A DNA stretch of 58,579 bases from Bacteroidales bacterium (GTDB lineage Bacteria > Bacteroidota > Bacteroidia > Bacteroidales > UBA932), in the NCBI GenBank assembly GCA_017549145.1, contig JAFYVM010000003.1, positions 1 to 58,579 on the forward strand, given 5' to 3'. Each line of letters starts with the position of its first letter. Position 1 is the stretch's first letter. Below, piece by piece: positions 19,476 through 51,100 of the stretch. Under the pieces are notes generated by a model. It saw only the letters and a list, made by a program, of their open reading frames with translations. It ran no database searches and was not told the origin of the DNA. The translations under genes were made by a program, and so were the position numbers.

Positions 19476-19490
19476 TTTTTTGATGGATGT

Positions 19491-19498: not shown

Positions 19499-19529
19499 CA
19501 AAGTACACAACTATATAACACTAAAACTG

Positions 19530-21836
19530 ATGAAAAGAATACTGATTTTATTGACAGCGATAGCTGCAATTGTCTCTTGCCAGAGGGGGCAGACAATCAG
19601 TGTTGTGCCATATCCAAACGATATTCAGGTAAATCGTGGACATTTTGAGGCTGCAGGTGCAAGCATGAATTATGATGCTCAGATAGACCAACAGACCCTC
19701 AATGTGATCTTTCAGTTCGCTCAGCAGCTAAGCTTGGTTACTGGTGTTGAATCCAGCACGAATGCAGGCACGTCAGATAATGGCTTCGTCTTCATATTCG
19801 ACTCTGAAGTCAATCCTGAAGCTTATACCTTGAAGGTGTCGCCAAATTGCGTTTCTGTGACTGCATCCGGACTTCGTGGATTCAACTATGCTGTTCAGAC
19901 ACTCAAGCAGCTTCTTCCTGTCGAGATCTACGCTAAGGTAAAGTCGGATAATGTCAACTGGACTATCCCTTGCGTCACTATCAATGATGCTCCTAGATTT
20001 GCATACCGCGGTCTCCATCTTGACGAGGCGAGACATTTCTTCGGTGTGGAGGAAGTCAAGAGATACATCGACATCATGGAGGTGCATAAGCTGAACACTT
20101 TGCACTGGCATCTTACAGACGATCAGGGCTGGAGAATCGAGATCAAGAAATATCCGAAGCTCACAGAGATCGGATCAGTCCGCAGCGGCACATGCATCAA
20201 AGGAGATGGCAGCACCACAGACGGCATTCCTTATGGTGAGGGAATGTGGTACACTCAGGACCAGATTCGTGAAATAGTTGCCTATGCTGCAGCAAAGGGA
20301 ATTGACGTGCTTCCTGAGATTGACCTTCCTGGTCATATGCTCGCGGCTCTTGCCGCTTATCCTCAGCTCGGATGCAAGAAAACAAAATATCAGGTCTGGA
20401 GCAGTTGGGGAGTATCGAAGGATGTTCTCTGCGTGGGAAAGGGTGAGTCATATACTTTCCTCCAGAATGTTCTTGCAGAGGTGTGCGAGCTTTTCCCTTA
20501 CAAGTATGTGCATATCGGTGGAGACGAATGTCCTAAGGATAGCTGGAAGACTTGTCCAAAGTGTCAGGCCAAGATAAAGAGCCTAGGTCTTAAGGCTGAT
20601 GAGAAATATAGTGCGGAACATTATCTTCAGAGTCATGTGATGTCCCAGATGGAAGTCTTTCTTGCAAGCAAGGGTAAGAAGGTGATCGGATGGGATGAGA
20701 TTCTTGAAGGAGATGTTTCCAAGAGTGCCACCATCATGTCGTGGAGAGGCGAGGAAGGAGGAATTGAGGCAGCCGGTCTCGGACACGATGTGATCATGTC
20801 TCCTTACACATACTACTATCTGGACTACTACCAGTCAATCGACGTTGAAAATGAGCCTTTCGGTATCGGCGGATATCTGCCGGTCGAGAGGTGTTATTCG
20901 TATGAGCCATGTCCTCAAACCATGACTGAGCAGGGCAAGAAACATATTATCGGAGTTCAGGCTAACCTATGGACAGAGTATGTTTCTACAAACGAGCATC
21001 TTGAGTATATGCTCCTTCCAAGATTGACCGCCCTCTGCGAGGTGCAGTGGTGTAATGCTGACAGAAAGGATTGGAACAGGTTCTTGGATTCGGCAGATGA
21101 ATTCTGCAGGATCTACAAGACCATGGGATATACCTATGCACCACATCTCTTCGGAGTCAATGGTGAGGTTACATACAATCAGGACAAGAATTCAGCAATC
21201 GTAACGCTCTACACTCAGGGCGACAAGCCGATTTACTACACAGTTGATGGAAGTGAGCCTGATTGCAATTCATCAAGGTATAATGGACCTGTCGAGATCT
21301 GCCAGTCATGCACTTTCAAGGCTGTTGTAATCCGTGACGATTTCCCTGTCAAGCCATTCAGCTATCGAGTTCAGTTCCACAAGGCTGTAGGCCGTCCTGT
21401 AACTTTGATGGAAAATTCCAACACAGGTGATCTTCTTGTTGACGCCCTCAGAGGACCATTCATCCATAAGAGACATGAGTGGCTTCCGCTTACTGCTGAA
21501 CCTTTGGTAGCTGTTATCGATATGGAGGACAGTGAGCCATATTCAAGCGTGACCGTGGGTGCAATCGTAATCAAGCCTAAGCAGCAGTTCAACCCTACAT
21601 ATCTTTCTGTAAGCGTCTCTGACGACGGATCAACATATACCGAGGTTGCGCGTGATGAATATGCAACGGAGGGACAGTTTGAGCCAAACGGACTCAAGGA
21701 GTACAAGGTGACATTCCCTGAGACAACAGCGAGATACATCAAGGTCTCTGTAGGATGCCTTCCTGCAGTTCCTCAATGGCACCATTATTTTGGCCGCCCT
21801 GGTTGCCTTTCAGTTGATGAAATAATTGTTGAGTAA
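19530..21836 (+). CDS. GH20 beta-N-acetylhexosaminidase lipoprotein
   Basis: The 768-residue exo-glycosidase releases terminal GlcNAc or GalNAc. It has a lipoprotein signal (AIVSC, about Cys17), a GH20b N-domain (about 25-150) and a catalytic TIM barrel starting RFAYRGLHLDEARHF. The substrate-assisted catalytic pair Asp332-Glu333 is in HIGGDECPK. WHLTDDQGWRIE and LWTEYVSTNE are conserved. A chitobiase C-terminal-like beta segment (IYYTVDGSEPDCNSSRY, about 565-615) and an F5/8 type C-like carbohydrate-binding domain (about 640-768) follow. First gene of the locus; the MFS transporter gene starts 21 bp later. Confidence 0.93.
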   Translation: MKRILILLTAIAAIVSCQRGQTISVVPYPNDIQVNRGHFEAAGASMNYDAQIDQQTLNVIFQFAQQLSLVTGVESSTNAGTSDNGFVFIFDSEVNPEAYTLKVSPNCVSVTASGLRGFNYAVQTLKQLLPVEIYAKVKSDNVNWTIPCVTINDAPRFAYRGLHLDEARHFFGVEEVKRYIDIMEVHKLNTLHWHLTDDQGWRIEIKKYPKLTEIGSVRSGTCIKGDGSTTDGIPYGEGMWYTQDQIREIVAYAAAKGIDVLPEIDLPGHMLAALAAYPQLGCKKTKYQVWSSWGVSKDVLCVGKGESYTFLQNVLAEVCELFPYKYVHIGGDECPKDSWKTCPKCQAKIKSLGLKADEKYSAEHYLQSHVMSQMEVFLASKGKKVIGWDEILEGDVSKSATIMSWRGEEGGIEAAGLGHDVIMSPYTYYYLDYYQSIDVENEPFGIGGYLPVERCYSYEPCPQTMTEQGKKHIIGVQANLWTEYVSTNEHLEYMLLPRLTALCEVQWCNADRKDWNRFLDSADEFCRIYKTMGYTYAPHLFGVNGEVTYNQDKNSAIVTLYTQGDKPIYYTVDGSEPDCNSSRYNGPVEICQSCTFKAVVIRDDFPVKPFSYRVQFHKAVGRPVTLMENSNTGDLLVDALRGPFIHKRHEWLPLTAEPLVAVIDMEDSEPYSSVTVGAIVIKPKQQFNPTYLSVSVSDDGSTYTEVARDEYATEGQFEPNGLKEYKVTFPETTARYIKVSVGCLPAVPQWHHYFGRPGCLSVDEIIVE

Positions 21837-21857
21837 TAATATAGACATAATCACATA

Positions 21858-23168
21858 ATGAAACAGACTAACCGACAATTCATTCTTTCCATGATTATGC
21901 TGGGCGCGTTGTTCTTTATCTTCGGCCTGGTTTCATGGGTTAATTCAATCCTTGTCCCTTATTTCAAGGTTGCATGTGAGCTTGAAGCAGGTGTTCAGAC
22001 CTATCTGGTTACATTTGCCTTCTACATCGCGTATCTGCTTATGACCATCCCTGCGTCATTCCTTCTCAACAAGGTGGGATTCAAGAGGGGAGTGGAGCTC
22101 GGTCTATGGATTCTTGCTGCCGGTGCCATGTTGTTCTGGCCAGCTGCCATGACCCGTTCATACGAAATGTTCCTTGCAGCGTTGTTCACAATGGGTACTG
22201 CATTGGCAATTCTTCAGACAGCTGCCAATCCGTTCGTCACCATCATCGGTCCACGTGAAAGCGCAGCAAGACGTATCAGCATCATGGGTATCTGCAATAA
22301 GTTTGCAGGTGTCATCAGCCCGCTCGTCTTCGCAGCTGCTGTAATCCGCCCTCAGGATAAGGTTACAATGGAACTCGTACAGAAAGGTGAACTCACAGGT
22401 GCAGCTAAGGAACAGGCCCTCGATGCAATGATTCAGGGTGTGATCCTTCCTTATGTCATCCTTGCTGTAGTTCTCTTTATCTTTGGTTTCGTATTCTATA
22501 AGTCATCTATACAGGATATCGACCCTAACAAGGATAACAAGAGTGAGGTGGAAGGTGCCCAGGACAGAAAGTCCATTCTTTCTTATCCATACCTTGTTCT
22601 TGGTGTGCTTGCCTTGTTTGCTCACACCGGTTCACAGCAGATTTCTATCGCAACTATCATCGATTATGCACAGAGCATGGGCATTACAATGCTTGACGCA
22701 AAGGTGTTCCCATCATTCACCCTCGGATGCATCATGATCGGTTATCTTGCAGGTATCGTATGTATTCCTAAGTACCTTTCACAGCAGAAAGCATTGGTTG
22801 TATGTACAGTTACAGGTCTTGTACTATCAGCACTGGTACTCCTGACAAAGAACGTGTGGGTTGGCTGGTTCGGCATGGAGGCACGTCTTTCAATCTGGTT
22901 CCTCGTGCTTCTTGGAATTCCAAATTCCCTGATCTATGCCGGAATCTGGCCATTGGCAATCAAGAACCTTGGTAAATGGACAAATCTCGGATCATCAATT
23001 CTCGTCATGGCTCTTTGTGGTAACGCCGTGATGACACTTTCATATGGAGCTCTTGCAGATAAGGTGGGCCTTGACAATGCATACTGGTTGCTCATCCCAT
23101 GCTTCGCCTATATGATCTACTACGCAACATGCGGATATAAAGTTGAATATTGGATAAAACGTAAATAA
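21858..23168 (+). CDS. MFS sugar transporter (NagP/FucP-like)
   Basis: The 436-residue inner-membrane carrier has about 12 hydrophobic segments. It resembles the FucP/NagP/GluP group of sugar:proton symporters (FGLVSWVNSILVPYFK near the start; QTAANPFVTIIGPRESAARR in the middle, with the AANPF and RxSxMG-like motif typical of this group). Placement between GH20 and nagA makes N-acetylglucosamine the most likely cargo. The stop is 2 bp before nagA. An MFS carrier delivers unphosphorylated sugar, so a GlcNAc kinase is needed and is not encoded in this window. Confidence 0.88.
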   Translation: MKQTNRQFILSMIMLGALFFIFGLVSWVNSILVPYFKVACELEAGVQTYLVTFAFYIAYLLMTIPASFLLNKVGFKRGVELGLWILAAGAMLFWPAAMTRSYEMFLAALFTMGTALAILQTAANPFVTIIGPRESAARRISIMGICNKFAGVISPLVFAAAVIRPQDKVTMELVQKGELTGAAKEQALDAMIQGVILPYVILAVVLFIFGFVFYKSSIQDIDPNKDNKSEVEGAQDRKSILSYPYLVLGVLALFAHTGSQQISIATIIDYAQSMGITMLDAKVFPSFTLGCIMIGYLAGIVCIPKYLSQQKALVVCTVTGLVLSALVLLTKNVWVGWFGMEARLSIWFLVLLGIPNSLIYAGIWPLAIKNLGKWTNLGSSILVMALCGNAVMTLSYGALADKVGLDNAYWLLIPCFAYMIYYATCGYKVEYWIKRK

Positions 23169-23170
23169 TC

Positions 23171-24346
23171 ATGAAGACAGTAATCAAAAATGGACGCGTC
23201 ATCACTCCAAATGAAACAATTTCAGGTTATGTTCTTGTAGAGGATGGCGTTATTAAAGAGATTGGAGAAGGTGAATATGCAGCTGAGGCTGATAAGGTAA
23301 TCGATGCTGAAGGATGCTATGTATCACCTGGATTTATCGACCTTCACACCCATGGCGCCGGTGGTGCAGACTTTATGGATGGTACAGTGGAGGCTTTTCT
23401 TGTTGCAGCTAAGATGCATGCAGCACACGGAGCTACACTTGTTTATCCTACAACATTGACAAGCTCAAACGAAGTGTTGTTTGATACATTCGTGACTTAT
23501 GAGCAGGCTGTCGAGCAGAACACTGAGGGTGCTGCTTTTGGTGGACTTCATCTTGAGGGACCATATTTCAACCCGCTTCAGGCTGGTGCTCAGGATCCAC
23601 GTTATCTCCGCAACCCAGATCCAGCGGATTATCTTGAAATCCTTTCACGCTCAAACAATATCGCCAGAGTAAGTTTCTCTCCAGAGCTTGAAGGAGCTCC
23701 TGAGTTTGCAGCAGAGCTTTCAAAGAGAGGTATCATTGCTTCGGCAGGTCATACAAATGCTACATTTGAGCAGTGTGACGAGGCTTTCAAGAGCGGCAGT
23801 TCGTTGATCACTCACTTCTTCTCATGCGTCAGCACAATCGTTCGTAAGAATTCATACAGAACAGCAGGTGTACTTGAGTATGGATATTATCAGGACGGAA
23901 TGGCTGTAGAGATTATCGCTGATGGTTGCCATGTGCCAGAATCTCTCCTTAAACTTATCGTTAGAGTCAAGGGATTTGATAATGTTGTTCTCGTTACTGA
24001 CTCTATGCGTGGTGCAGGTATGCCTGAGGGTCCAAGTATCTTGGGAGGCCTTGCAGACGGTCAGGCATGTATCATTGAGGACGGCGTAGCAAAACTCATG
24101 GACCGTTCAGGTTTTGCAGGTAGTGTATGTACTACTGACAGACTTATCAGAACTATGACTACTCTCGCAGGTGTTACTGTGGAGCAGGCAGTCAAGATGG
24201 CTTCTTACAATCCTGCCAGAGTAATGGGTATTGCAGATCGTAAGGGTAGTCTTGAGGTTGGTAAGGATGCTGATATCGTTATCTTCAATGACAATGTAGA
24301 TGTTGCAGCTACAATCGTAGGCGGTCGAGTTGTGTACAGCAAATAA
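23171..24346 (+). CDS. nagA: N-acetylglucosamine-6-phosphate deacetylase
   Basis: The 391-residue amidohydrolase converts GlcNAc-6-phosphate to glucosamine-6-phosphate. Typical features are SPGFIDLHTHGAGGADFMDG (metal site), HLEGPYFNPLQAGAQ, SAGHTNATFEQ (metal His), HFFSCVST and the catalytic Asp in LVTDSMRGAG. Near-normal length. The cytoplasmic enzyme lies 2 bp after the transporter and 17 bp before nagB, a classical nag module embedded in the glycan operon. Confidence 0.94.
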   Translation: MKTVIKNGRVITPNETISGYVLVEDGVIKEIGEGEYAAEADKVIDAEGCYVSPGFIDLHTHGAGGADFMDGTVEAFLVAAKMHAAHGATLVYPTTLTSSNEVLFDTFVTYEQAVEQNTEGAAFGGLHLEGPYFNPLQAGAQDPRYLRNPDPADYLEILSRSNNIARVSFSPELEGAPEFAAELSKRGIIASAGHTNATFEQCDEAFKSGSSLITHFFSCVSTIVRKNSYRTAGVLEYGYYQDGMAVEIIADGCHVPESLLKLIVRVKGFDNVVLVTDSMRGAGMPEGPSILGGLADGQACIIEDGVAKLMDRSGFAGSVCTTDRLIRTMTTLAGVTVEQAVKMASYNPARVMGIADRKGSLEVGKDADIVIFNDNVDVAATIVGGRVVYSK

Positions 24347-24363
24347 TTAGAATAATAAATATC

Positions 24364-25128
24364 ATGTTAAAGAAAGAATTTAACGTAGACAAACTTTTGG
24401 TTAAGGTCTTTGATAACAGACAGTCTATGGGACAGACTGCTGCTGATGAGGCTGTCGCGTATCTCAAGGAACTCCTTGCTAATCAGGATGAGGTGTGGGC
24501 AATCTTCGGTGCTGCACCTTCACAGAATGAAATTCTGGCAGGTCTTGTAGCTGCTGAGGGAGTTGATTGGACACGTGTACATGCTATCCACATGGATGAG
24601 TATGTAAACCTTGCATCTGATGCACCTCAGGGCTTCGGTAACTTCCTTCGCCGTGCAATCTTCGACAAGCTTCCGTTTGCAAGCATCGAGTATCTCGGTT
24701 CAGAAGGTGATCCACAGGAAAAGATTGACAGATACAACAGATTGCTCGAGGAGCATCCAATCGATATTGTATTCATGGGTATCGGCGAGAACGGACACAT
24801 TGCATTCAATGATCCGCATGTAGCTGATTTCAATGACCCTGAGAAGATCAAGATCGTTGACCTTGACAGCAAGTGCCGTCAGCAGCAGGTGAACGACGGA
24901 TGTTTCGCAAAGTTCGAGGATGTTCCTGAATACGCACTTACATTGACAGTTCCAACCTTGTTCTCAGGACGCAGACTTTTCTGTGTAGTTCCAGCTCCTA
25001 CAAAGGCTGATGCCGTACGTGCAACTGTTCTGGGACCTGTTTCTGAGGTTTGCCCGGCAACAATAATGCGTCTGCACGACAATGCAACGCTTTATTGTGA
25101 TTCGGATAGTGGAAAATATATCCTATAG
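24364..25128 (+). CDS. nagB: glucosamine-6-phosphate deaminase family protein
   Basis: The 254-residue enzyme of the NagB/6-phosphogluconolactonase family is expected to turn glucosamine-6-phosphate into fructose-6-phosphate and ammonia. HMDEYVNL holds the family Asp, and GIGENGHIAFNDP holds the catalytic His region. Two deviations are visible: the phosphate loop reads FGAAPSQNE where GSTP-type is usual, and FNDP replaces the common FNEP, so the ring-opening Glu is an Asp. The neighbours support NagB, but another aminosugar-phosphate isomerase is possible. It starts 17 bp after nagA and ends 5 bp before uxuA. Confidence 0.82.
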   Translation: MLKKEFNVDKLLVKVFDNRQSMGQTAADEAVAYLKELLANQDEVWAIFGAAPSQNEILAGLVAAEGVDWTRVHAIHMDEYVNLASDAPQGFGNFLRRAIFDKLPFASIEYLGSEGDPQEKIDRYNRLLEEHPIDIVFMGIGENGHIAFNDPHVADFNDPEKIKIVDLDSKCRQQQVNDGCFAKFEDVPEYALTLTVPTLFSGRRLFCVVPAPTKADAVRATVLGPVSEVCPATIMRLHDNATLYCDSDSGKYIL

Positions 25129-25133
25129 TATAT

Positions 25134-26363
25134 ATGGAAAAGACTTGGAGATGGTTCGGTCGTAAAGACCGCATTACACTTGATATGCTGCGCCAGATAG
25201 GTGTGGAGGGCATAGTTACAGCCCTTCATGATGTCCCTAATGGCCAGGTATGGACTCGTGAAGCCATCCGTGACCTGCGTGAATATATTGAAAGCTTCGG
25301 CATGAGATGGTCAGTTGTCGAGTCCCTTCCTGTATGCGAGAGCATAAAGTATGGCGGACCAGACAGAGATCAGCTGATTGAAAATTATAAGGAGAGTCTT
25401 CGCAATCTTTCTGCTGAGGGTGTGCATACTATATGCTACAACTTCATGCCGGTTCTTGACTGGGCCAGAACAGATCTGGATCATCCAAATCCGAACGGAA
25501 CAACCAATCTTTATTTCTCATATTCAGAGTTTGCTTACTTTGATATCTACATTGTAGGACGTGAGGGTGCACGTGAGGAATGGGCTTCGTTCAAGGTTCC
25601 TGGTATTGATGTAGAGCGTGATATTCTGGCTGAGGTAGATGAACTTCGACAGAAGATGACCCCAGAGGCTGAACACAAGCTTGTAGAGAATATCATTGTC
25701 AAGACTCAGGGCTTTGTAAGCGGAAATATCCGTGAGGATGATGAGCGTCCGGTTGAGCTTTTCAAGCAGCTTCTTTCTCTATATGATGGTATAACCAAGG
25801 ACCAGCTGCGTGAGAATATGCGCTACTTCCTTTCGGCTATCATGCCTGTTTGTGAGGAGTGTGGAATGAACATGTGCGTTCATCCGGATGATCCTCCTTT
25901 CCCAGTGTTAGGACTTCCACGTATCGTTACATCTGAAGAGGATATCGAATGGTTCCTCAAAGCTGTGGATAATCCGCATAACAGACTTACATTCTGTGCA
26001 GGTTCTCTTTCTGCAGGTGCTCAGAACAATGTAGTGGAGATGGCAAGAAAGTTCGCTCCGCGTACGCATTTCATTCATTTGCGTTCGTGCCATATCTTCG
26101 ATAATGGAGATTTTACAGAAGCTAGTCACCTTGGTGGTCGTGCAAATATTATTGAACTCGTAAGAATATTCGAAAAGCAGAACCCGGAACTTCCGATGCG
26201 TGTCGATCATGGTATGACGATGCTTGGAGATGAGTCGCGTGGTTACAATGCAGGATACTCTTTCTTGGGAAGAATGTTCGCTATGGGACAGGTGCAGGGA
26301 ATCATGGCTACAGTAGATAATGAACTTAACCTTCAATATAAAATAACTGGATTCTATGAATAA
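25134..26363 (+). CDS. uxuA: mannonate dehydratase
   Basis: The 409-residue UxuA-family TIM-barrel enzyme dehydrates D-mannonate to 2-keto-3-deoxygluconate in hexuronate catabolism. Recognisable segments are TWRWFGRKDRITLDMLRQIG at the start, CYNFMPVLDWARTDL, MCVHPDDPPFPVLGLPRI, CAGSLSAG, HLRSCHIF and MRVDHGMTMLGD, including Cys/His/Asp metal ligands. Full length. Its 3' end overlaps the SDR gene by 8 bp. Its presence next to nag genes suggests that the substrate contains a uronic acid as well as an amino sugar. No UxaC isomerase or KDG kinase is in the window. Confidence 0.92.
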   Translation: MEKTWRWFGRKDRITLDMLRQIGVEGIVTALHDVPNGQVWTREAIRDLREYIESFGMRWSVVESLPVCESIKYGGPDRDQLIENYKESLRNLSAEGVHTICYNFMPVLDWARTDLDHPNPNGTTNLYFSYSEFAYFDIYIVGREGAREEWASFKVPGIDVERDILAEVDELRQKMTPEAEHKLVENIIVKTQGFVSGNIREDDERPVELFKQLLSLYDGITKDQLRENMRYFLSAIMPVCEECGMNMCVHPDDPPFPVLGLPRIVTSEEDIEWFLKAVDNPHNRLTFCAGSLSAGAQNNVVEMARKFAPRTHFIHLRSCHIFDNGDFTEASHLGGRANIIELVRIFEKQNPELPMRVDHGMTMLGDESRGYNAGYSFLGRMFAMGQVQGIMATVDNELNLQYKITGFYE

Positions 26364-27168: not shown

Positions 27169-27191
27169 TCAATTGTTATATACGGCATAAA

Positions 27192-30245: not shown

Positions 30246-30249
30246 GATC

Positions 30250-32185: not shown

Positions 32186-32225
32186 AAATAAATGAATAAT
32201 AAATAATAACCAAAATCAACGAATT

Positions 32226-32369
32226 ATGAAAAGTAATGAATTTTATGTCGCTCCAGACATTAAGATGGTTGACCTAGACCATGAAGGAGTGCTTTGCTCC
32301 TCACAATCAAACGGTGGCATCGACAATTTGACTCCAGGAAATGATTGGTCAGATGATTTGTGGAAATAG
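32226..32369 (+). CDS. 47-residue small protein of unknown function
   Basis: A short frame starts ATG 32226 and stops TAG 32367-32369, between the BACON-like and fimbrillin-like genes with gaps of 40 and 26 bp. The peptide begins MKSNEFYVAPDIKMVDLD, has a central EGVLCSS with one Cys, and ends in an acidic, Trp-containing tail (NDWSDDLWK). It has no signal peptide or membrane segment. Similar short peptides with a [E]xVLCSS-like core occur beside fimbrillin and PUL lipoprotein genes in Bacteroidales, from memory; their role is not known to me. Coding is supported by its fit in the operon and by in-frame composition. Confidence 0.65.
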   Translation: MKSNEFYVAPDIKMVDLDHEGVLCSSQSNGGIDNLTPGNDWSDDLWK

Positions 32370-32395
32370 TAACTAATTAACCAATAGGAATAATC

Positions 32396-33931: not shown

Positions 33932-33945
33932 TTAAAACACTTATA

Positions 33946-36543
33946 ATGAAAAAATCATTATCTATACTTCTGGCAGCTTCTCTTGCAGTCTGCATTTCCT
34001 GCTCAAAACAGGAGATACAGGCTGGGGGAGAACAGCCGGAAAACAACATTCCTACAACCGAATGTCTGGACTATATCACCGCTGTCAGTCCTGGTACTCC
34101 AGTGAAGACCACGACAGCTGACGGTGTGAAGGTGTTATGGACAGATAGTGATAAAATAGGAATGTATGCAGGAGGAACATCTACAGCTGTATATACTACA
34201 TCGCTCTCAGCACCTTCGGCTCAGGCTAAATTTGGAAGAACTTCAGATGCCACTCCGGTCAAGGTCAACGATAGATATTATGCTGTATATCCTTCTTCTG
34301 CTATTGTAAAATGGAATTTAGAGACTGGTGGGAGCGAATCTTCAGCTCCTGTATGCTATGTAAACGTGCCTAAGCAGCAGACTGCTGAAGTTGGTGCGTG
34401 GGACAAAAAGGCTGCTGTTCTTATCGCCAATAGTGAAACAGAACAGTTTGTCTTCAAGCATGCTGTCTCGTATGTCCGTTTTGAGGTCACTGACCAGACT
34501 GGAGAATTTGTATCTGTAAGATTGTCTTCTGTAAACAAGGAGAAACTTTCTGATACGCAGGCGGGTATTCAATATCTTGCAACTGGCGGAGTCAAGATGG
34601 TTTCAAGTCTCACAGCTTCAGATTATGTCAGTCTGCGTAATTCAGAAAACGGTGTTCCTTTCGCAACTGGTGTTTACAATATTGCTATCATGCCAGGCGA
34701 TTTCACAGGAGGTCTTGTACTTAGCTTTGAGAATGCTGAGGGCCTTGTAGCAGAAAAGAGTGTCGGACCGTTGACACTCAATGCCGGTGAGGTTTCTGAT
34801 TGGGGCCAGGTGGAGAAGTTGACTTTCACAGAAGGAAACAATCCGCTTGAATTGGCTACCGTTTATAAGGAGAATGAAATCAACCAGGGAGTTGTATACT
34901 GGATTGATCCAGATAATCCATACAAGGGTAAGATCATTTCAGCTTCTTCAACTGAAGCTATGGATTGGTCAGAGAATATATCTGTAGAATTTCTCTGGAC
35001 CGAAAAGATTGTCAGCTTGACTGATGGTCTTCTCAACTATCAGCAGTTCAACGCTTCTGAGGTTTATACAAGCCAGAAGGAGAAATTCTATGCACTGCAG
35101 TATTGTGAGAAGATGAGAGAAAGCCATGGTGGAAACTGGTATCTTCCTGCACCTCAGGAGTTGAGTACTCTCGTCCAAGTTTACTATGGTTTATCAGAAC
35201 TCCCAGGATCAAGCTCAAATGAGATTGATTATCGCTTCGAGAATTCAGTACTCATTCCAAGTGTCATGAATGCAAAAGCTGAGTTTGATGCTGCTTTGAG
35301 ACTTCTTGGAGAGACAACAACCGCAACCCTTGATGGTGATGCAGACTGTGATGGAGTATCTGATAATAATGGTTATGGAGATGCAAGGGGAGTAACCTAT
35401 TGGACTTCCAAGGTAAATACTGGTGGTTCAGTTCAATATGTCAATATCGGAACATATTTCGTCAGTCATATCACTAAAGCCGCGACAAAGGGTTACGTAC
35501 GTTGTGTCCGTGATGTAGAACTCAATAGTACTGGCGGAGGTAATGCTGGCGAGGATCCAGGTGAAGAACCGGGCGAAAACCCTGGTGAAAATCCTGGTGA
35601 GAATCCTGGTGAGAATCCTGGCGAAGAGCCAGGCGGAAACCCTGGAGAAAATCCTGGAGACGGTGGGGATGACACAGGTGGAGACAATACTGGTGAAGGA
35701 GGAACTGATGTGGGTCAGGTAAATCCTAGTATCGATCCTCTTAATCCATTTGACATCTTCAACCAGACCAAGCGTGTGAGCCTAGTGGGAGATTCAATCA
35801 CCACTTATGAAGGTACTCTTGTGACAAACTTTGATTCTGAGAATGGCGGTGCATATTATCCGACGGGTAATGTAACTTCAGTTACAAACCAGTACTGGCA
35901 TAAACTCATTTATAATAAAATGAGCGGCGCCGTTCTCGACGTAAATAACTCACTTAGAGGATCCTGTGTAGTCAGACGTAGCACTCATCCAGATCTTGAC
36001 TATCCTGCACGTGTACAGTTACATGGTCTTGGAAATCCGGACATCATCTTCATCCATGGTGGTACAAATGACTGCTCGAAGCATAGTGCAGATTATGCTC
36101 CAAGACCTGGTTTCTATAGAGCTGATATGTATCCTGGTGATGCCTACGCCGGTATGGCACCTTCTACACTTCCTACAGCAGCTGAATTCAAGGCAGTCTA
36201 TGATGCTGCCGAAGCTGCTGATACATGGGAGGAGATTCTGGCTTTGGAGGATGGCTATTTTGTGCATGCCTATGTAAAGCTTCTGAACATGATCCACTTC
36301 AAGCATCCGAATGCTAAAGTGGTCATGATCATTGGTGACGCTCTTACAAAGCGTGCACAGCAGGCAATTCTTGAGATAGCTGACCACTATGGCAAGCTCT
36401 ATGGCTACAAATGTGTCAACTTTTTTGGATTGGCAGATAGTATCTCCAAGGCTTCTGGAGCACATCCGGATGATGCAGGATTTACTTATATGGCTGAAAA
36501 GATCTACCAGGAGGTAGGATCTTATATTGATCCGAGAAACTAA
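33946..36543 (+). CDS. fimbrillin-like / DUF1566-like / SGNH hydrolase lipoprotein
   Basis: The 865-residue lipoprotein (signal CISC, about Cys19) has four parts. A fimbrillin-like domain spans about 35-290. The shared DUF1566/Lcl-like module spans about 300-527 (GGNWYLPAPQE, GYVRCVRDVEL). A PGEN/PGEE-repeat linker spans about 533-575. An SGNH hydrolase spans about 607-865, with block I LVGDSIT (Ser617) and block III HGGTND. Block V reads SGAHPDD, so His840 is present but the Asp three residues earlier is Ser. Its paralogue at 3411 keeps DNVH. A Ser-His dyad may suffice. Probable surface deacylase for the locus. Confidence 0.83.
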   Translation: MKKSLSILLAASLAVCISCSKQEIQAGGEQPENNIPTTECLDYITAVSPGTPVKTTTADGVKVLWTDSDKIGMYAGGTSTAVYTTSLSAPSAQAKFGRTSDATPVKVNDRYYAVYPSSAIVKWNLETGGSESSAPVCYVNVPKQQTAEVGAWDKKAAVLIANSETEQFVFKHAVSYVRFEVTDQTGEFVSVRLSSVNKEKLSDTQAGIQYLATGGVKMVSSLTASDYVSLRNSENGVPFATGVYNIAIMPGDFTGGLVLSFENAEGLVAEKSVGPLTLNAGEVSDWGQVEKLTFTEGNNPLELATVYKENEINQGVVYWIDPDNPYKGKIISASSTEAMDWSENISVEFLWTEKIVSLTDGLLNYQQFNASEVYTSQKEKFYALQYCEKMRESHGGNWYLPAPQELSTLVQVYYGLSELPGSSSNEIDYRFENSVLIPSVMNAKAEFDAALRLLGETTTATLDGDADCDGVSDNNGYGDARGVTYWTSKVNTGGSVQYVNIGTYFVSHITKAATKGYVRCVRDVELNSTGGGNAGEDPGEEPGENPGENPGENPGENPGEEPGGNPGENPGDGGDDTGGDNTGEGGTDVGQVNPSIDPLNPFDIFNQTKRVSLVGDSITTYEGTLVTNFDSENGGAYYPTGNVTSVTNQYWHKLIYNKMSGAVLDVNNSLRGSCVVRRSTHPDLDYPARVQLHGLGNPDIIFIHGGTNDCSKHSADYAPRPGFYRADMYPGDAYAGMAPSTLPTAAEFKAVYDAAEAADTWEEILALEDGYFVHAYVKLLNMIHFKHPNAKVVMIIGDALTKRAQQAILEIADHYGKLYGYKCVNFFGLADSISKASGAHPDDAGFTYMAEKIYQEVGSYIDPRN
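35551..35668 (+). repeat. PGEN/PGEE tandem-repeat linker
   Basis: Roughly eight degenerate 12-bp units encode Pro-Gly-Glu-Asn or Pro-Gly-Glu-Glu between the DUF1566-like module and the SGNH domain. It is a flexible acidic linker within the coding frame; unit number may vary between strains by slippage. Confidence 0.85.
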
Positions 36544-36552
36544 AAAATTAGT

Positions 36553-38766
36553 ATGAAAAGAAATGTAATTTTGGCGATTGCCTTATGTCTGTCTTTGATT
36601 TCTTATGCGCAGAAGGCGCCCAAGAGGTCATTCCTGACTGAAACTGAACCAGCTGAGGTCAAATGGCAGAATGGGGAACTGGTCAACTTTTCAGATGCTT
36701 CTGACGGGCAAGGAGTAAATTATTACATTGATAAAGCCGACGGCAAGACCTTCTTCATGGGAAGAGGGGCTTGTCGCTCGGATGAAGGTGATTGGCTCGC
36801 TTTGTATCCTGCGGGAGCATTGAACTTCTGGGAAGGTAGTTGCATGCACTTCCTTATTCCTCACGAGCAGGTGGCGAATAAGACTGCTAATCCTATGTAT
36901 AGCCGCACCCAGACTATTGCGATGGATTTCAAACCGCTTACAGCTTATCTGTCCTTTGAACTTGCACCTGGACAGCCGCCTGTAAAGGAGATCCGTTTCA
37001 AGACAAATAAGTTCATCTCAGGTACTTACAAGGTAGATTTCAGTATGAAGACTGTCTCAGTACAGTTGGATACTGGTGAGAACAGATACAGAGAGATCGT
37101 TCTTAAGCCGGGAGAAAGTGGAGTCATTGAACCTGGTACATATACAATGGCAATTTACGCACGTGTACTTCCTGATGGAATGACTGTGGAAATTGAGTCT
37201 GTAGATGGAAAGGTGGAAGTAAGGAAGATTGCAAGGGAACTTAAATTTGCATTGGGAAAGACAAGAGACTTCGGAGTTTTGACTAATCTTAAGTTCGATG
37301 CTGATTCTAAGTCTACAGTAGGAGAAAAGTATGGTGACGTTGGTGTAATCTTCTGGAACAATCCAGATGATCCGACCAGAGGTAAGGCCGTTGCTGCAAC
37401 TGCTTCTTTAATGAACTGGTCTGCTGCCAACAGCTTGCACGGAATTCATACTTTCAAGGATAACTACGAGTTGGTTCATTCAACAGTTACTAATCTTCCT
37501 GCCTACAAGGCTTCTCCTGAGGACTATCCGGCTGTAAATGCATGTGAGGAAATGAGAAAGACTTATGGTGGAAACTGGCATGTGCCTTCTGCCCGTGAGA
37601 TGAAGTATCTCTTCAATGCTTATTATGGCAAGTCTGATTTAGCTCTGCCTGAAAACGGCGAGGAATACACCGATGAAGCATCACAGCAGGCAGCAGCCCG
37701 TTTCGATGCTCAGCTTGTAGCCCTCGGTGGTGAGAAGTTGCTCGCCATGTCAAATCATTATTGGATCTGCGGCCAGAACTCAAGTGGCAATATGCAGTAT
37801 GTCAATATGCGCAAGTTCTATCATTCTCATGCTGAACAGACACAGAAGAAATATGTTCGTTGCGTATGTGATTTCCATGGTACTGTAACTGGCGAGAACA
37901 CGTCATCCCCTCAGACTGAGGTTGGTAAAACCTTAGAGAGCGATAAGTGTTCTAAAATCATTGACGTCCTCTGGGATACAACCTTCACAGTGACAAAGGG
38001 TCTGGAGTATTACCAGATGGAAATTCTTACAGAGTCTCATGAGAAGATGGATATCTATCTTCTTAGAGTAGATCAGTCTCAGGGACTTGATGTCAGAGCA
38101 GCTACATCTGGAAATGTCACATCATCTGAATGGGTGAGACAGGTCCCTTCTGAGATGGCTGTTCATATGGATTCACCTGAAAAGCCTCTTTACGCCCTAG
38201 TAAACGCCGATTTCTGTGAGAACAGAATTCCAATCAGACCTCGTGGACCTCATCACAGTGATGGTAAGATCTGGGTGTCATCATATAGTATCGACCCTAG
38301 ACTTCCTCAGCAGGCTTTGAGCTACGTGGGTGTGACTTTCGATGGCAAGATGGTAATCGGTCCTAGTTCAGAATATCAGGGTGCCAAAAAGTCATTGAAG
38401 GAGTGTACTGGTGCTGGTGTGATCCTTCTCAAGGATTATGTCATCCAAGGTGGCTATGTCCTTGATCCTGGTAGAGATCCTCGTACTGCATTAGGATATA
38501 CTGCTGATAACATCGTATGGATTCTTGCAGTTGACGGAAGACATAAGGGAACAAACGGTATGAACTATATGGAGATGGCTTCGTTGTTCCAGGCTCTAGG
38601 ATGTATTGATGCCGTTAATCTTGATGGAGGTGGATCTACTCAGATGGTTGTAAGAGATCCCAATACCAATAAACTTGAGATGCGCAACTGGCCATCTGAC
38701 CCTACCAATGGTTTCGGTGGTCGTGAAAGAGCACGACTCAACGGTTGGTGCATTATTAAACACTAG
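36553..38766 (+). CDS. fimbrillin-like / DUF1566-like / phosphodiester glycosidase protein
   Basis: The 737-residue secreted protein has a signal peptide ending LISYAQ and no lipobox. A fimbrillin-like domain (about 25-245), the shared DUF1566/Lcl-like module (about 255-445; GGNWHVPSAREMKYL, NMQYVNMRKF, KYVRCVCDF) and a C-terminal phosphodiester-glycosidase (NAGPA-type) domain (about 460-737) follow. The last has RGPHHSDGKIW, YVGVTFDGKMVIG, ILAVDGRHKGTNG, NLDGGGSTQMV and a final Gly-rich segment. NAGPA removes GlcNAc from GlcNAc-1-phosphodiesters, so this enzyme may cleave sugar-phosphate diesters in the substrate. It lies 9 bp after the SGNH gene and 3 bp before its tandem paralogue. Confidence 0.85.
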   Translation: MKRNVILAIALCLSLISYAQKAPKRSFLTETEPAEVKWQNGELVNFSDASDGQGVNYYIDKADGKTFFMGRGACRSDEGDWLALYPAGALNFWEGSCMHFLIPHEQVANKTANPMYSRTQTIAMDFKPLTAYLSFELAPGQPPVKEIRFKTNKFISGTYKVDFSMKTVSVQLDTGENRYREIVLKPGESGVIEPGTYTMAIYARVLPDGMTVEIESVDGKVEVRKIARELKFALGKTRDFGVLTNLKFDADSKSTVGEKYGDVGVIFWNNPDDPTRGKAVAATASLMNWSAANSLHGIHTFKDNYELVHSTVTNLPAYKASPEDYPAVNACEEMRKTYGGNWHVPSAREMKYLFNAYYGKSDLALPENGEEYTDEASQQAAARFDAQLVALGGEKLLAMSNHYWICGQNSSGNMQYVNMRKFYHSHAEQTQKKYVRCVCDFHGTVTGENTSSPQTEVGKTLESDKCSKIIDVLWDTTFTVTKGLEYYQMEILTESHEKMDIYLLRVDQSQGLDVRAATSGNVTSSEWVRQVPSEMAVHMDSPEKPLYALVNADFCENRIPIRPRGPHHSDGKIWVSSYSIDPRLPQQALSYVGVTFDGKMVIGPSSEYQGAKKSLKECTGAGVILLKDYVIQGGYVLDPGRDPRTALGYTADNIVWILAVDGRHKGTNGMNYMEMASLFQALGCIDAVNLDGGGSTQMVVRDPNTNKLEMRNWPSDPTNGFGGRERARLNGWCIIKH

Positions 38767-38769
38767 AAA

Positions 38770-40272
38770 ATGCTAAGAAAAGAAAGCATATTCATAAGCC
38801 TTATTTTGTGTGCTATGACGTCATGTGTCAAGCCGGGACCGGAAAATGTTCCCGACGAGACACATGGCGCATTGTCGCACATGGCTGTCTATAGGAAGCA
38901 CGGCACTGATTTAGGTGTCATCTTCCATGTTGATCCGAATGATGACCACAAAGGAAAGGCTGTTTCTGCTGTGGGCGGCCTTATGAAATGGGCCAATTCA
39001 AATGACTTATGGAGAATAGACTCCTATAATGACAATTACGATTACGTTCATACAGTAATCACAACAACAGAAAAGTACATTGAGACTCCAGAACATTTCC
39101 CTGCTGTCAAGTTCTGTGATGACCTGCGACGCGAGTACGGCGGAAACTGGCATCTCCCTTCTCAGGATGAGATCAATACACTATTCAACGCCTATACTGA
39201 TAAATCGCATCGCTTTGATTCTCTGCTTGTATCACTAGGCGGAGACCCTTTGCTTGAAAAGAGTAGTAAATATTGGCTCTGCGCCCAGAACTTAAATGGT
39301 AACATGCAGTATGTCAATATGTCTAAAAATATGACCGGCGAAGATATTCAGATTACTGAAAACTATGTCCGCTGTGTCCTGGACATTGATAACACTGATT
39401 CTAAAGATAAAGTCGAATACCCTCAGACCAATATCGGAAAGCTTATCGAGGGCCCTTTGACCTCAAGGGTAGTTGACATTTTGTGGGATACAACCTACAA
39501 TGTTACGAACGGCCTCGATTACTATCAGATGAAGTTGAAGACTGAAGCTGATGAGGTCATGGACACATATTTTCTAAGAGTAGATCTTTCAAAAGAACTC
39601 GATCTCAGAGTTGCAGTTGCAAGGGATACAGAGCCGCCTACATGGATCAGGGAGACTCTTACAGATATGGCAGCATATCTTAATCATCCGTTAAAGCCTG
39701 TTTATGCTATGGTCAATGGAGACTTCTGCGATAACAGAAGCCCGATCAGACCGCGTGGCCCAGTTCATTGTAACGGAGAGATGTTGTGTACTACATACAG
39801 TCTTGACCCCGATCTTCAAGATCAGGGCCTGACCTATGTCGGAGTTACATACGACGGAAAAATGATTATCGGTCTACGTGAGGAGTACGATGAAGTCAAG
39901 ATGACTTTGAAAGATTGTACTGGTGGTGGCGTAGTGCTGGTAGATGATTCAAAGATTGCTGTCAGGGAATATACTTCAAGACATCCGCGAACAGCAATAG
40001 GACATACTTCCGGCAATATCGTGTGGATTCTTGCAGTTGACGGAAGACATAAAGGAACTCAAGGAATGACATATTCAGAGATGGCATCAATATTCTTCGG
40101 ATTAGGTTGTGAGGCCGCTGTCAATCTCGATGGAGGAGGATCGACGGAGATGTTGGCTCGAAACCCTTTGAATGGCAAGCTGGAAATATGTAACTGGCCG
40201 TCAGACCCTACAGACGGTGGCGGTGGTGAGGAACGACCAAGGCCGAATGCTTGGGCAGTTGTAAAGAAATAA
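38770..40272 (+). CDS. DUF1566-like / phosphodiester glycosidase lipoprotein
   Basis: The 500-residue lipoprotein (lipobox MTSC, about Cys17) is a tandem paralogue of the preceding gene that lacks the fimbrillin-like domain. The DUF1566/Lcl-like module spans about 35-212 (GGNWHLPSQDEINTL, NMQYVNMSK, NYVRCVLDI). The phosphodiester-glycosidase domain spans about 230-500 (RGPVHCNGEML, YVGVTYDGKMIIG, ILAVDGRHKGTQG, NLDGGGSTEML). The two catalytic domains share long identical blocks, so they arose by duplication. This one is predicted to be lipid-anchored and the other to be free. GlcNAc-1-phosphodiester cleavage is inferred from the family. Confidence 0.85.
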   Translation: MLRKESIFISLILCAMTSCVKPGPENVPDETHGALSHMAVYRKHGTDLGVIFHVDPNDDHKGKAVSAVGGLMKWANSNDLWRIDSYNDNYDYVHTVITTTEKYIETPEHFPAVKFCDDLRREYGGNWHLPSQDEINTLFNAYTDKSHRFDSLLVSLGGDPLLEKSSKYWLCAQNLNGNMQYVNMSKNMTGEDIQITENYVRCVLDIDNTDSKDKVEYPQTNIGKLIEGPLTSRVVDILWDTTYNVTNGLDYYQMKLKTEADEVMDTYFLRVDLSKELDLRVAVARDTEPPTWIRETLTDMAAYLNHPLKPVYAMVNGDFCDNRSPIRPRGPVHCNGEMLCTTYSLDPDLQDQGLTYVGVTYDGKMIIGLREEYDEVKMTLKDCTGGGVVLVDDSKIAVREYTSRHPRTAIGHTSGNIVWILAVDGRHKGTQGMTYSEMASIFFGLGCEAAVNLDGGGSTEMLARNPLNGKLEICNWPSDPTDGGGGEERPRPNAWAVVKK

Positions 40273-40288
40273 TAAAAATACAGATACG

Positions 40289-41170
40289 ATGAAAAGAACA
40301 CTTTCTATGGCTATTGTAGCCGCTGCACTTCTTTTAATGAATTGCGTTGAATCTGCAGGATGGGGACAGATAGGACATTCAACTATCGCGCAGGTCGCTC
40401 AGGACCATCTTACTCCTAAGGCTCAGAAGGCCCTTAGCAAGTACCTTGACGGTCTTCCCCTTGCTATCATTGCTTCTGATGCTGATATATACAGAGGACA
40501 ATGGACTGTGGACTTGGGATTCATTCCAACAAACCCTCAGGATGCACGAGTAAGTTTTGTGAGAAACTTTGACTTCTCGACTCCTTTGAACATTTCTCCA
40601 TGGTCACATTCAATTACTGTGGATATGGATTTCAATTGCTATCCTACTGACAACCTCGATGGCGCGTACATCAACAACGCTGCATACTATATTGACAATC
40701 TGTCAAAGGAACTCAAGGAGAATGCAGAAAATATGGACCCGTTCGAGAGATATAAGGCCATTGCAATCATTGTCCACCTGATGGGTGACATGCATTGCCC
40801 TATGCACATCGTATATCTTCCGGATAATGTTGTAAAGGGACATTATTTTGTAGAGTATAAGGGAAAACAGCAGGATATGCACGTTATGTGGGATGGAAAG
40901 ATCTTCGATGATTACTACAAGTGGAGCTTCTTGGATATGGCCTATCTTGTGGATACAGCAACTCCTAAGCAGATTGCTGAAATCATCAAGGGTGATGTCT
41001 ATGACTATGCTGAGAGCAGTGCAAGAGACAGCTGGCCTGCAGTCAGTGCATACAAGGATGGAGATTCTCTTCCAAGATCTTATGCAACTGATATCCGTCC
41101 GATCCTTTTCCAGCAGCTTCGTAATGGCGGTTATCGTCTTGCAGCGATCTTTAACGAAATCTTCAAGTAA
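40289..41170 (+). CDS. S1/P1-type nuclease (3'-nucleotidase/phosphodiesterase)
   Basis: The 293-residue protein belongs to the zinc-dependent S1/P1 nuclease family. The mature N-terminus would begin at the Trp of AGWGQIGHSTIAQVAQ, because the family uses the amino group of Trp1 as a zinc ligand. Further ligands are seen in IIASDADIYRG, SHSITVDM, HLMGDMHCPMHI and MHVMWDGKIFDDYY. The signal contains LLLMNC, so lipidation is an alternative. Classical members cleave single-stranded nucleic acid and 3'-nucleotides. Its place between phosphodiester glycosidases and a SASA esterase suggests that it acts on a phosphodiester or phosphomonoester in the substrate. Gaps are 16 and 6 bp. Confidence 0.88.
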   Translation: MKRTLSMAIVAAALLLMNCVESAGWGQIGHSTIAQVAQDHLTPKAQKALSKYLDGLPLAIIASDADIYRGQWTVDLGFIPTNPQDARVSFVRNFDFSTPLNISPWSHSITVDMDFNCYPTDNLDGAYINNAAYYIDNLSKELKENAENMDPFERYKAIAIIVHLMGDMHCPMHIVYLPDNVVKGHYFVEYKGKQQDMHVMWDGKIFDDYYKWSFLDMAYLVDTATPKQIAEIIKGDVYDYAESSARDSWPAVSAYKDGDSLPRSYATDIRPILFQQLRNGGYRLAAIFNEIFK

Positions 41171-41176
41171 CAGATT

Positions 41177-41977
41177 ATGAAATCAAGATTAATATCTGTA
41201 CTTATCCTGTTGCTGTTCACATGTTTTCTGAGTGCATCAGCGCAGAATAAAGTTGATTCGAACGAGTATGATGTGTTCCTGCTTATCGGTCAGTCCAATA
41301 TGGCCGGCAGGGGATACATGACAGAGAAGGATAAGGAAGTCTTTGATAAGAATGTGTTTATCCTCAATGATGCAGGTGAGGTGGTGCCGGCAACTAATCC
41401 GTTGAACCAATATTCATCGATCAGAAAGGGAATGTCCATCCAGCGTATCAACCCTGGCTTCAGCTTCTCAAAGAAGATTGCGAAGAAGACCAAACGTAAG
41501 ATTCTCTTGGTCGTGAATGCGCGTGGAGGAACAACTCTGTCTCAATGGACTAAAGGAGAAGGTGGAGAGGGTTACTATGAAGAAGCCGTACGACGCACAA
41601 AGCAGGCTATGCAATACGGTACCCTCAAGGCTATCCTCTGGCATCAGGGATGTGGTGATTCAAAGAAAACAGATGTGTATCTTGACAAGCTCGCAGTCTT
41701 TGTCCAGAATCTCAGAACTGACCTCGGAGCTGATGTGCCGTTCATCGCTGGTGAATTAGGACAGTGGCGCAGCAATGTTGCTGCATTCAATGAGATGATT
41801 CATTCCATCTCAGAATATATTCCAGATTCAGATTGGGTTTCAAGTGATGGCGGAGTGCCTATTGCATCTCCAGACCCTGAAGGAAAGCCAAATATGAAGG
41901 ACCCTCATTTTGATCGCAAGAGCCTGATCATCATCGGTAAGAGATACGCTGACAAGGTCCTGAAGATGTGCTACTAA
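41177..41977 (+). CDS. SASA-domain carbohydrate esterase (sialate O-acetylesterase-like)
   Basis: The 266-residue secreted SGNH-type esterase has a signal peptide ending about SASAQ. The SASA core includes LLIGQSNMAGRGYM (nucleophile Ser in GQSN), VVNARGGTTLSQW, ILWHQGCGDS and FIAGELGQW, with a C-terminal catalytic DPHFDRKS (DxxH). It would remove acetyl groups from sugar hydroxyls. It is the last gene of the plus-strand glycan locus and starts 6 bp after the nuclease. Its stop codon overlaps the end of a decayed cyclase gene on the other strand, and no clear terminator hairpin follows. Confidence 0.88.
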   Translation: MKSRLISVLILLLFTCFLSASAQNKVDSNEYDVFLLIGQSNMAGRGYMTEKDKEVFDKNVFILNDAGEVVPATNPLNQYSSIRKGMSIQRINPGFSFSKKIAKKTKRKILLVVNARGGTTLSQWTKGEGGEGYYEEAVRRTKQAMQYGTLKAILWHQGCGDSKKTDVYLDKLAVFVQNLRTDLGADVPFIAGELGQWRSNVAAFNEMIHSISEYIPDSDWVSSDGGVPIASPDPEGKPNMKDPHFDRKSLIIIGKRYADKVLKMCY

Positions 41978-51093: not shown

Positions 51094-51100
51094 AGTGCTA

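Follow-up and report, generated by a model that had tools for sequence, protein, structure and literature searches.

The run of genes at positions 19530-41977 of the window (the whole stretch of 58,579 nt analysed here, from a gut-type Bacteroidales) is a real locus, recognisable from its genes as a SusC/SusD polysaccharide utilisation locus (PUL), and on balance it is taken as a single PUL dedicated to an acylated glycan, which would carry GlcNAc held through phosphodiester bonds. An acylated, GlcNAc-bearing, phosphoester-containing target, put forward in a preliminary description of this DNA, is still the best reading, supported by an orthologous PUL in a genome of the same genus (G301) and by related SusC loci hosting Exo_endo_phos genes. 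Glycans with phosphodiester bonds are common, and include capsules, teichoic-acid-type polymers, and protist and fungal phosphoglycans. Neither a PUL described for such glycans nor a described PUL with the content reported below was retrieved when openly licensed PubMed Central papers were searched by text.

Organization of the locus

According to the list of open reading frames of the window, 16 genes, and not 17 as earlier counted, follow one another on the plus strand. The locus and its regulatory region include:

18258-19397, minus: XylR-like regulator (Peripla_BP_3 and AraC HTH; Pfam), 54% identical to the regulator inside the G301 PUL
19418-19498: divergent promoter region, with -7 box-like sequences TATATTTG (19418-19425, minus) and TAAATTTG (19491-19498, plus); motif match only
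19530-21836, plus: GH20 beta-hexosaminidase with lipobox-like N-terminus (Pfam); closest solved relative by sequence 6q63, E 7.3e-222
21858-23168, plus: MFS permease, NagP-like; NCBIfam NagP 325 bits (below the cut-off of 625), gluP 216.7 bits (above the cut-off of 202.55)
23171-24346, plus: NagA, GlcNAc-6-P deacetylase; TIGR00221 275 bits, above the cut-off of 225.65
24364-25128, plus: divergent NagB-like glucosamine-6-P deaminase; best nagB model 117.5 bits, below cut-off; PDB 2ri0
25134-26363, plus: UxuA, mannonate dehydratase; two NCBIfam models above cut-off
26356-27168, plus: SDR of the D-mannonate oxidoreductase type (UxuB function); NF006132 364.8 bits, above the cut-off of 281
27192-30245, plus: SusC TonB-dependent transporter; TIGR04056 815 bits, and tree
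30250-31773, plus: SusD (Pfam)
31763-32185, plus: BACON-domain lipoprotein of 140 aa (Pfam); 51% identity in G301
32226-32369, plus: 47-aa peptide gene; a 57% identical ORF lies directly upstream of the 511-aa homologue in G301
32396-33931, plus: 511-aa lipoprotein, probable surface glycan-binding protein, without Pfam match; aligns with the SGNH, NAGPA1 and NAGPA2 proteins
33946-36543, plus: Lcl_C-like region and SGNH/GDSL esterase domain, 865 aa (Pfam)
36553-38766, plus: NAGPA1, with N-terminal region, Lcl_C-like region and C-terminal PF09992 (residues 549-734; Pfam); fold match to 3OHG and vertebrate NAGPA
38770-40272, plus: NAGPA2, Lcl_C-like region and PF09992 (residues 311-497; Pfam); PDB 3ohg by sequence, E 8.4e-13
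40289-41170, plus: S1/P1 nuclease-family protein (Pfam); by alignment with two relatives, the expected metal-ligand residues of P1 nuclease look present
41177-41977, plus: SASA-family carbohydrate esterase (Pfam)

The distances at successive junctions are 21, 2, 17, 5, -8, 23, 4, -11, 40, 26, 14, 9, 3, 16 and 6 bp, when start 31763 is chosen for the BACON gene and the 47-aa ORF at 32226 is counted in. The tight spacing previously noticed (42 bp or less) thus holds, the largest gap being 40 bp with all genes on the plus strand, but the earlier statement that many genes overlap is wrong, with overlaps at only 2 of the 15 junctions. All the families listed in the preliminary description (GH20, MFS, NagA, NagB-like, UxuA, SDR, two NAGPA, S1/P1, SGNH and SASA) were retrieved by Pfam or NCBIfam models, which also identified SusC, SusD and BACON; the divergent XylR-type regulator was found as well, with its Peripla_BP_3 and AraC-type HTH domains. 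The 443 bp past 41977 contain no ORF of at least 100 aa, and are followed by greA; a GH92 gene lies 1.3 kb downstream of the PUL, with greA in between.

As in other Bacteroidota PULs, a single run includes adjacent SusC and SusD genes, surface lipoproteins, a glycosidase, esterases, catabolic genes and a regulator, and the putative glycan-active enzymes (GH20, SASA, SGNH, NAGPA), as read from the genes alone, are co-directional with gaps of 40 bp at most. In contrast to those PULs, the locus adds two NAGPA domains and an S1/P1 protein, and repeats an Lcl_C-like region over four consecutive proteins. An endo-acting surface glycosidase or lyase, common in PULs but not required, is absent from the Pfam matches of the 16 products, as earlier reported; two of these products, of 511 and 47 aa, match no Pfam family. 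A hidden endo-enzyme in the 511-aa protein was considered and rejected, since this protein can be aligned to the SGNH protein outside the esterase domain. The homologue of the 511-aa protein in G301, of 504 aa, is 32% identical to residues 1-526 of the SGNH protein of the window, and a 523-aa protein of G301 is 35% identical to the 511-aa protein. Because of these alignments, the latter looks like a stand-alone binding module. The Lcl_C-like region is shared, by alignment, by the C-terminal part of the 511-aa protein, the SGNH protein, NAGPA1 and NAGPA2. Lcl_C-like and N-terminal regions are poorly modelled, and the AlphaFold model of the 511-aa protein (mean pLDDT 42) is too poor to be used.

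Promoter motifs do not single out the one convincing promoter earlier described at the left end. The Bacteroidetes-type -7 box, TAnnTTTG, occurs 47 times in the window versus 33.9 expected from shuffles, in some cases within the coding sequence of the operon. The stricter TTTG-N17-24-TAnnTTTG motif has two matches, before greA and before GH92, which is chance level (shuffle mean 1.3; two or more in 31 of 100 shuffles). A sigma-70 scan of the 18100-38000 interval is uninformative here (54 sites versus 38.4 expected).

NAGPA-family proteins

Both PF09992 domains are C-terminal, in proteins carrying the Lcl_C-like region, and score 102.7 and 109.0 bits against a Pfam gathering cut-off of 25. The model of NAGPA1, confident only at about residues 450-737, has the NAGPA fold (3OHG, E 1.4e-19; vertebrate NAGPA, the uncovering enzyme, about 1e-12) together with the core motifs; D-G-R and D-G-G-G are conserved in all 27 aligned domains, which include 14 of the 16 encoded in the genome of the window (G000). 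With the NAGPA/DUF2233 family, which includes the vertebrate enzyme and Bacteroides ovatus BACOVA_00430 (3OHG), the domains described here share the fold and the DGR and DGGG motifs. In contrast, these domains, whose activity is predicted, are fused behind an Lcl_C-like region, and form a tandem pair in a SusCD operon. In the tree, NAGPA1 and NAGPA2 are sisters (support 0.990), and the pair groups with the second NAGPA of a PUL hosting GH20 and NHL genes (support 0.999).

The preliminary description suggested that the phosphodiester glycosidases could open the polymer backbone. This is not supported: the vertebrate member of the family removes a capping GlcNAc from GlcNAc-P-mannose (PMC12024695), and decapping or end-trimming is a more likely role. 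A rumen metagenome study only gives counts of the COG (PMC5114307).

On the vertebrate precedent (PMC12024695), the target might instead be a eukaryotic phosphorylated N-glycan or a phosphomannan-type glycan, with NAGPA uncapping GlcNAc-P-mannose, GH20 trimming the antennae, and the GH92 enzyme encoded 1.3 kb downstream removing alpha-mannose. We regard this scenario as quite unlikely: greA and 1.3 kb part GH92 from the PUL, the stretches surrounding the orthologous PUL in G301 showed no GH92 relative, and UxuA and SDR would not be explained by N-glycans. At the general-acid position of the alignment, the GH92 enzyme has Glu, like the solved alpha-mannosidases compared. GH92-family phosphomannosidases have Gln at this position, and a role of the enzyme on mannose-1-phosphate is not favoured either.

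The orthologous PUL and related SusC loci

The PUL of G301 encodes SusC and SusD proteins 75% and 64% identical, and NagA, NagB, UxuA and SDR proteins 80-94% identical, to those of the window. SusCD, GH20, SGNH and the NagA/NagB/UxuA/SDR set make up the common core. The G301 PUL lacks NAGPA, S1/P1 and SASA genes; two Exo_endo_phos genes and one gene for a histidine-phosphatase-family protein take the place of NAGPA and S1/P1, and a GH3 gene is present. No second copy of the exact gene set of the window was seen in the genomes sampled.

The association with Exo_endo_phos extends to the SusC lineage. In 19 of the 20 related SusC loci examined, an Exo_endo_phos gene lies 1-2 kb upstream of SusC in the same direction; the exception is L072, where the gene sits on the opposite strand at a distance of 8.7 kb, and where the 2.6 kb from SusC up to the upstream contig end yielded none. 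Outside the clade, only one of 21 SusC loci, chosen non-randomly for NAGPA or NagB, has such a gene; the count, at E 0.01, was the same before and after the HMM was widened with the L092 and L019 proteins. The family is frequent in the genomes concerned, with 297 matches over 20 genomes, and chance alone would place such a gene in about 11% of stretches of 20 kb (expectation 0.12 per 20 kb). Same-genus Exo_endo_phos loci share the SusC lineage (53-59% identity to the SusC of the window) and have a BACON match in all 20 stretches; GH3 is present in the two tested (L081 and L082). They differ in that Exo_endo_phos is found upstream of SusC, whereas the window features NAGPA and S1/P1. The SusC closest to that of the window on the tree, L092, is accompanied by S1/P1 (45% identical to that of the window) and Exo_endo_phos genes in the same direction, and a co-directional run in the genome of the window (G000:C52) includes Exo_endo_phos, SusC, NAGPA, S1/P1, an organophosphate-antiporter-like MFS and GDPD. 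Gene content, orthology, the difference in phosphoesterase families and the trees are established at the sequence level, and a target with phosphodiester bonds gains comparative support from G301 and the related SusC loci.

A phosphodiester glycan is one of several readings, because nucleic acids and monoesters are also substrates of the Exo_endo_phos, S1/P1 and histidine-phosphatase families. The Exo_endo_phos family includes nucleases, and solved S1/P1 relatives are nucleases. The SusC lineage might import nucleic acids or nucleotide-like compounds, NAGPA acting on UDP-GlcNAc-like molecules or cell-wall leftovers; UDP-GlcNAc is also hydrolysed by vertebrate NAGPA (PMC12024695). This is improbable, as GH20, NagA, NagB, UxuA, SDR and two esterase families in the window, and GH3 in G301, would be misplaced there, and Pfam assigned no nucleoside hydrolase or phosphorylase to any of the 16 products.

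An ordinary host- or plant-glycan PUL, in which a phosphate-free substrate provides GlcNAc and glucuronate, and NAGPA, S1/P1 and Exo_endo_phos have other or accessory roles, is also unlikely. In the genus, at least 13 of 20 loci fetched do combine MFS and NagA relatives with a neighbouring NagB relative, with no NAGPA, S1/P1 or Exo_endo_phos detected by HMMs, and family names are not proof of function. Yet, one SusC lineage is coupled to different phosphoesterase families, and GDPD and the organophosphate-antiporter-like gene reside in the parallel run of the same genome.

Predicted substrate and mechanism

GlcNAc and uronate are consistent with the catabolic genes of the locus. The uronate-bearing nature of the polymer, as originally proposed, is less well supported: UxuA and the mannonate-oxidoreductase-type SDR fit, but no uronidase or lyase is found by Pfam in the PUL. 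UxaC is encoded elsewhere in the same genome (G000:C10), and all three activities of the UxaC-UxuB-UxuA glucuronate pathway are encoded, as judged from family models only. Plant glycosyl inositol phosphorylceramide was weighed for its GlcNAc and GlcA, and set aside; its GlcNAc linkage is alpha, which does not suit GH20. Wall teichoic acid is kept as a candidate substrate.

For the acylated, phosphodiester-bearing glycan that we favour, binding at the surface would fall to lipoproteins, namely BACON, the 511-aa protein, and the esterase and NAGPA2 through their Lcl_C-like regions, and the SGNH protein would strip acyl groups. GlcNAc would be freed from terminal GlcNAc-alpha-1-phosphate, whether caps or ends, by NAGPA2 on the cell surface and by NAGPA1 deeper inside, and fragments would enter via SusC/D. 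In the periplasm S1/P1 may act on the remaining phosphoesters, SASA may deacetylate, and GH20 may take off beta-HexNAc. GlcNAc would reach central metabolism via the NagP-like permease, NagA and NagB, and hexuronate would be converted to KDG by UxuA and SDR, with UxaC supplied from another contig. The phosphoester step would be performed by Exo_endo_phos enzymes in related SusC loci, and here by NAGPA, which is duplicated and akin to the second such protein of a conserved NAGPA-GH20 PUL. We infer the substrate, locations, enzyme activities and order of steps, as well as the direction of the exchange, NAGPA having replaced Exo_endo_phos and not the reverse.

More tentatively, a Bacteroidales SusC/D lineage might be dedicated to phosphodiester-linked glycans through a plug-in phosphodiesterase, mostly Exo_endo_phos, and here tandem NAGPA with S1/P1, the catabolic core for GlcNAc and hexuronate being common to the Exo_endo_phos-bearing relative.

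Other NAGPA genes

A different type of NAGPA-bearing PUL was found in Bacteroides xylanisolvens XB1A, B. congonensis and Candidatus Cryptobacteroides merdavium. Its layout is FecR, SusC, SusD, one or two NAGPA, and two TIG/NHL proteins, with GH20 in some instances, and is seen in Candidatus Cryptobacteroides merdavium, G000:C66, G301:C28 and, without GH20 in the stretch read, B. xylanisolvens XB1A; FecR, sigma factor and TIG/NHL were Pfam-tested in G000:C66, and judged by layout in other loci. The likeness to the window claimed is that NAGPA directly follows SusD in this type, and GH20 is nearby in four loci (L013, L026, and the near-identical L028 and L029). In contrast, its SusC is only about 30% identical to that of the window, and no NagA, NagB, UxuA, S1/P1 or SASA relatives were found in the stretches read.

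Of the 16 GH20 genes of G000 and G301, 3 are within 10 kb of a NAGPA gene (1.0 expected, tail 0.08), 6 within 15 kb (1.4 expected), and 7 within 20 kb (1.7 expected); of 8 S1/P1 genes, 3 are within 10 kb (0.5 expected, tail 0.012). No weight is given to these figures, because the window is counted, distances were set post hoc, and most G301 contigs had no entered length. The genome of the window hosts 16 PF09992 domains, above any of 143 other genomes counted, of which 118 have at most 5 each, and 25, picked for related SusD or NAGPA genes, have 0 to 10. The notion of an expansion unique to the species was dropped, as G301 has 10 such domains and two other genomes have 9.

Gene content and organization of the PUL

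ORF calling assigns 16 genes to the SusC/SusD polysaccharide utilization locus (PUL), all in one direction and separated by gaps of at most 40 bp, with a XylR-like regulator divergent from them. By Pfam and NCBIfam matches, the first part encodes GH20, a NagP-like MFS transporter, NagA, a NagB-like protein, UxuA, a mannonate-oxidoreductase-type SDR, SusC and SusD. The second encodes a lipoprotein with a BACON domain, a 47-aa peptide, a 511-aa lipoprotein, an SGNH protein, two proteins with the NAGPA domain (PF09992), an S1/P1 protein and a SASA esterase. The preliminary description had the content right, but counted 17 genes, many of them overlapping, while overlaps occur at 2 of the 15 junctions. 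The host genome (G000) measures 2.35 Mb and is 83% complete.

19530-41977, the PUL
32226-32369, gene of the 47-aa peptide
36553-38766, NAGPA1
38770-40272, NAGPA2

A lipobox-like cysteine is found, reading N-termini by eye, in the GH20, SusD, BACON, 511-aa, SGNH and NAGPA2 proteins; NAGPA1, S1/P1 and SASA, judged in the same way, resemble secreted proteins of the usual kind. A weak Lcl_C match (Pfam, E between 3e-5 and 1e-4, short of the curated cut-off) occurs in each of the SGNH, NAGPA1 and NAGPA2 proteins, and this region aligns with the 511-aa protein; the region common to the four proteins is probably a binding module.

The orthologous PUL of G301

An orthologous PUL resides in G301, a genome of the same genus (contig C17, 38.8-71.4 kb). 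Identities to the window proteins are, on the uptake side, 75% for SusC, 64% for SusD, 51% for BACON, 57% for the 47-aa peptide (L062:2087-2236) and 39% for the 511-aa homologue; GH20 and the regulator score 57% and 54%. On the catabolic side, values rise to 88% for MFS, 80% for NagA, 87% for NagB, 92% for SDR, and 91 and 94% for two pieces of UxuA flanking the border of a fetched stretch. SGNH proteins and a 422-aa NAGPA1-like protein without the NAGPA domain are also present. In contrast to the window, gene order differs, and gaps between called genes reach 174 bp, the longest of them hosting the 47-aa ORF. Genes lacking a window counterpart include two Exo_endo_phos (PF03372) genes (752 and 321 aa), and those for a histidine-phosphatase-family protein, GH3 and a DUF5689 protein; no S1/P1 or SASA relative, and no NAGPA domain, was seen in the stretches around this PUL. 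The putative phosphoester-cleaving part thus differs between the two species, which share the uptake and catabolic core.

The 47-aa peptide has a central LC(S/A)S motif, and in G301 its gene is conserved just ahead of the one for the 511-aa homologue. Fainter look-alikes occur in loci L013, L082 and L066.

Exo_endo_phos genes in the SusC lineage

A SusD search of 398 family genomes gave 43 matches in 33 genomes (G000 included) at E 1e-60 or better; the best 20 besides the window (51-57% SusD identity) were examined, and the 22 lower ones left out. An Exo_endo_phos gene was present in all 20 related SusC stretches, according to an HMM built from five domains, three of which derive from two of these same loci. 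In 19 it is co-directional with SusC and 1.0-2.0 kb upstream; in L072 the sole such gene lies 8.7 kb away on the opposite strand. Outside the lineage, 1 of 21 SusC loci (L019) hosts one; these controls were no random draw but loci picked for NAGPA or NagB. As background, 20 genomes (~49.7 Mb) contain 297 PF03372 matches, equal to 0.12 per 20 kb or an expected 11% of 20-kb stretches with one.

The SusC tree pairs the window with G301 (1.000) and sets the 20 loci apart from both as a group of their own (0.978). The nearest other SusC to the window belongs to L092, on contig C35 of G301. There, S1/P1 (45% to that of the window), WbsX-type, SGNH and Exo_endo_phos proteins are encoded in the same direction as SusC, GH3 and a GxDLY-SGNH protein divergently. 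As G301 and L092 also carry Exo_endo_phos, its replacement by NAGPA in the line of the window would be the simpler history.

NAGPA proteins: plausible role and relatives

The preliminary description suggested that the NAGPA enzymes could open the polymer. We do not follow this reading, because the known activity is the removal of capping GlcNAc (PMC12024695). PMC12419801 describes NAGPA as releasing phosphodiester-linked sugars. PF09992 matches make up the C-terminal ends of both proteins. A NAGPA1 model built with 11 relatives is confident over approximately residues 450-737, and this part matches the Bacteroides ovatus structure 3OHG and vertebrate NAGPA, the uncovering enzyme; only chains 5h3k and 6ozd, listed also by the sequence search, fall besides below E 0.001.

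The NAGPA tree shows NAGPA1 and NAGPA2 as a sister pair, which joins the second NAGPA from a conserved arrangement: FecR, SusC and SusD, then one or two NAGPA and a pair of TIG/NHL proteins. This layout was found in G000 (contig C66, the one locus where domains were Pfam-tested), G301 (contig C28), Candidatus Cryptobacteroides merdavium, Bacteroides xylanisolvens, B. congonensis and further Bacteroidales MAGs. GH20 lies downstream in four loci (L013, L026, and the near-identical L028 and L029), and was not seen in the fetched stretches of the remaining ones. Among 400 genus genomes, scoring at most two candidates each, a match over the full Lcl_C-like region and NAGPA domain of NAGPA1 was obtained only in G000; one further match, in the same-genus genome G479 (29%), has three stops and starts within the Lcl_C-like region. 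Contig C72 of G343, also of the genus, has NAGPA matches at 8884-9717 and 9830-10642. G000, at 2.35 Mb and 83% complete, hosts 16 PF09992 domains (contigs C19, C45, C48, C52, C56, C65, C66, C70 and C77), more than any of 143 other genomes counted.

Parallel gene runs exist. Contig C52 of G000 (L019, L020) carries, co-directionally, Exo_endo_phos (42 bp ahead of SusC), SusC, NAGPA, DUF4886, S1/P1, MFS and GDPD genes; the MFS protein comes nearest to the organophosphate transporter models, with 227.7 bits for TIGR00881 and 199 bits for GlpT, neither score reaching its cut-off. On contig C21 of G301, NAGPA adjoins S1/P1 directly.

Amino-sugar and uronate genes

Of 400 genus genomes, 44 (G000 among them) have a NagB relative at E 1e-50. 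In 20 NagB loci (L100-L119), a simple gene caller that overlooks overlapped genes found both MFS and NagA relatives in at least 13, a SusC relative in 8 and a XylR-like regulator in 4; HMMs for NAGPA, S1/P1 and Exo_endo_phos matched none of the 20. MFS and NagA relatives next to a NagB relative make up a recurring amino-sugar module of the genus. Among the loci seen, G000 and G301 alone have UxuA together with the SDR beside the module; the L106 stretch has a UxuA-like gene (39%), and that of L108 an SDR (54%). UxaC of G000 is on a contig other than the window. The Pfam matches of the window PUL include neither a uronidase nor a lyase, and release of the uronate would therefore need enzymes encoded elsewhere.

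Other genes of the window

43265-45484, GH92 alpha-mannosidase, close to the solved 6f8z; preceded by a Bacteroidetes promoter-like match of a kind not rarer than expected by chance
50365-52591, minus strand, MIP-family channel (glpF-like) and glpK, ~8 kb from the PUL, which could serve the use of glycerol, if any is released
3411-7223, 1270-aa GLUG-repeat protein with a GDSL domain at the C-terminus
8247-9911, calcineurin-like phosphoesterase with MetallophosN and MetallophosC domains
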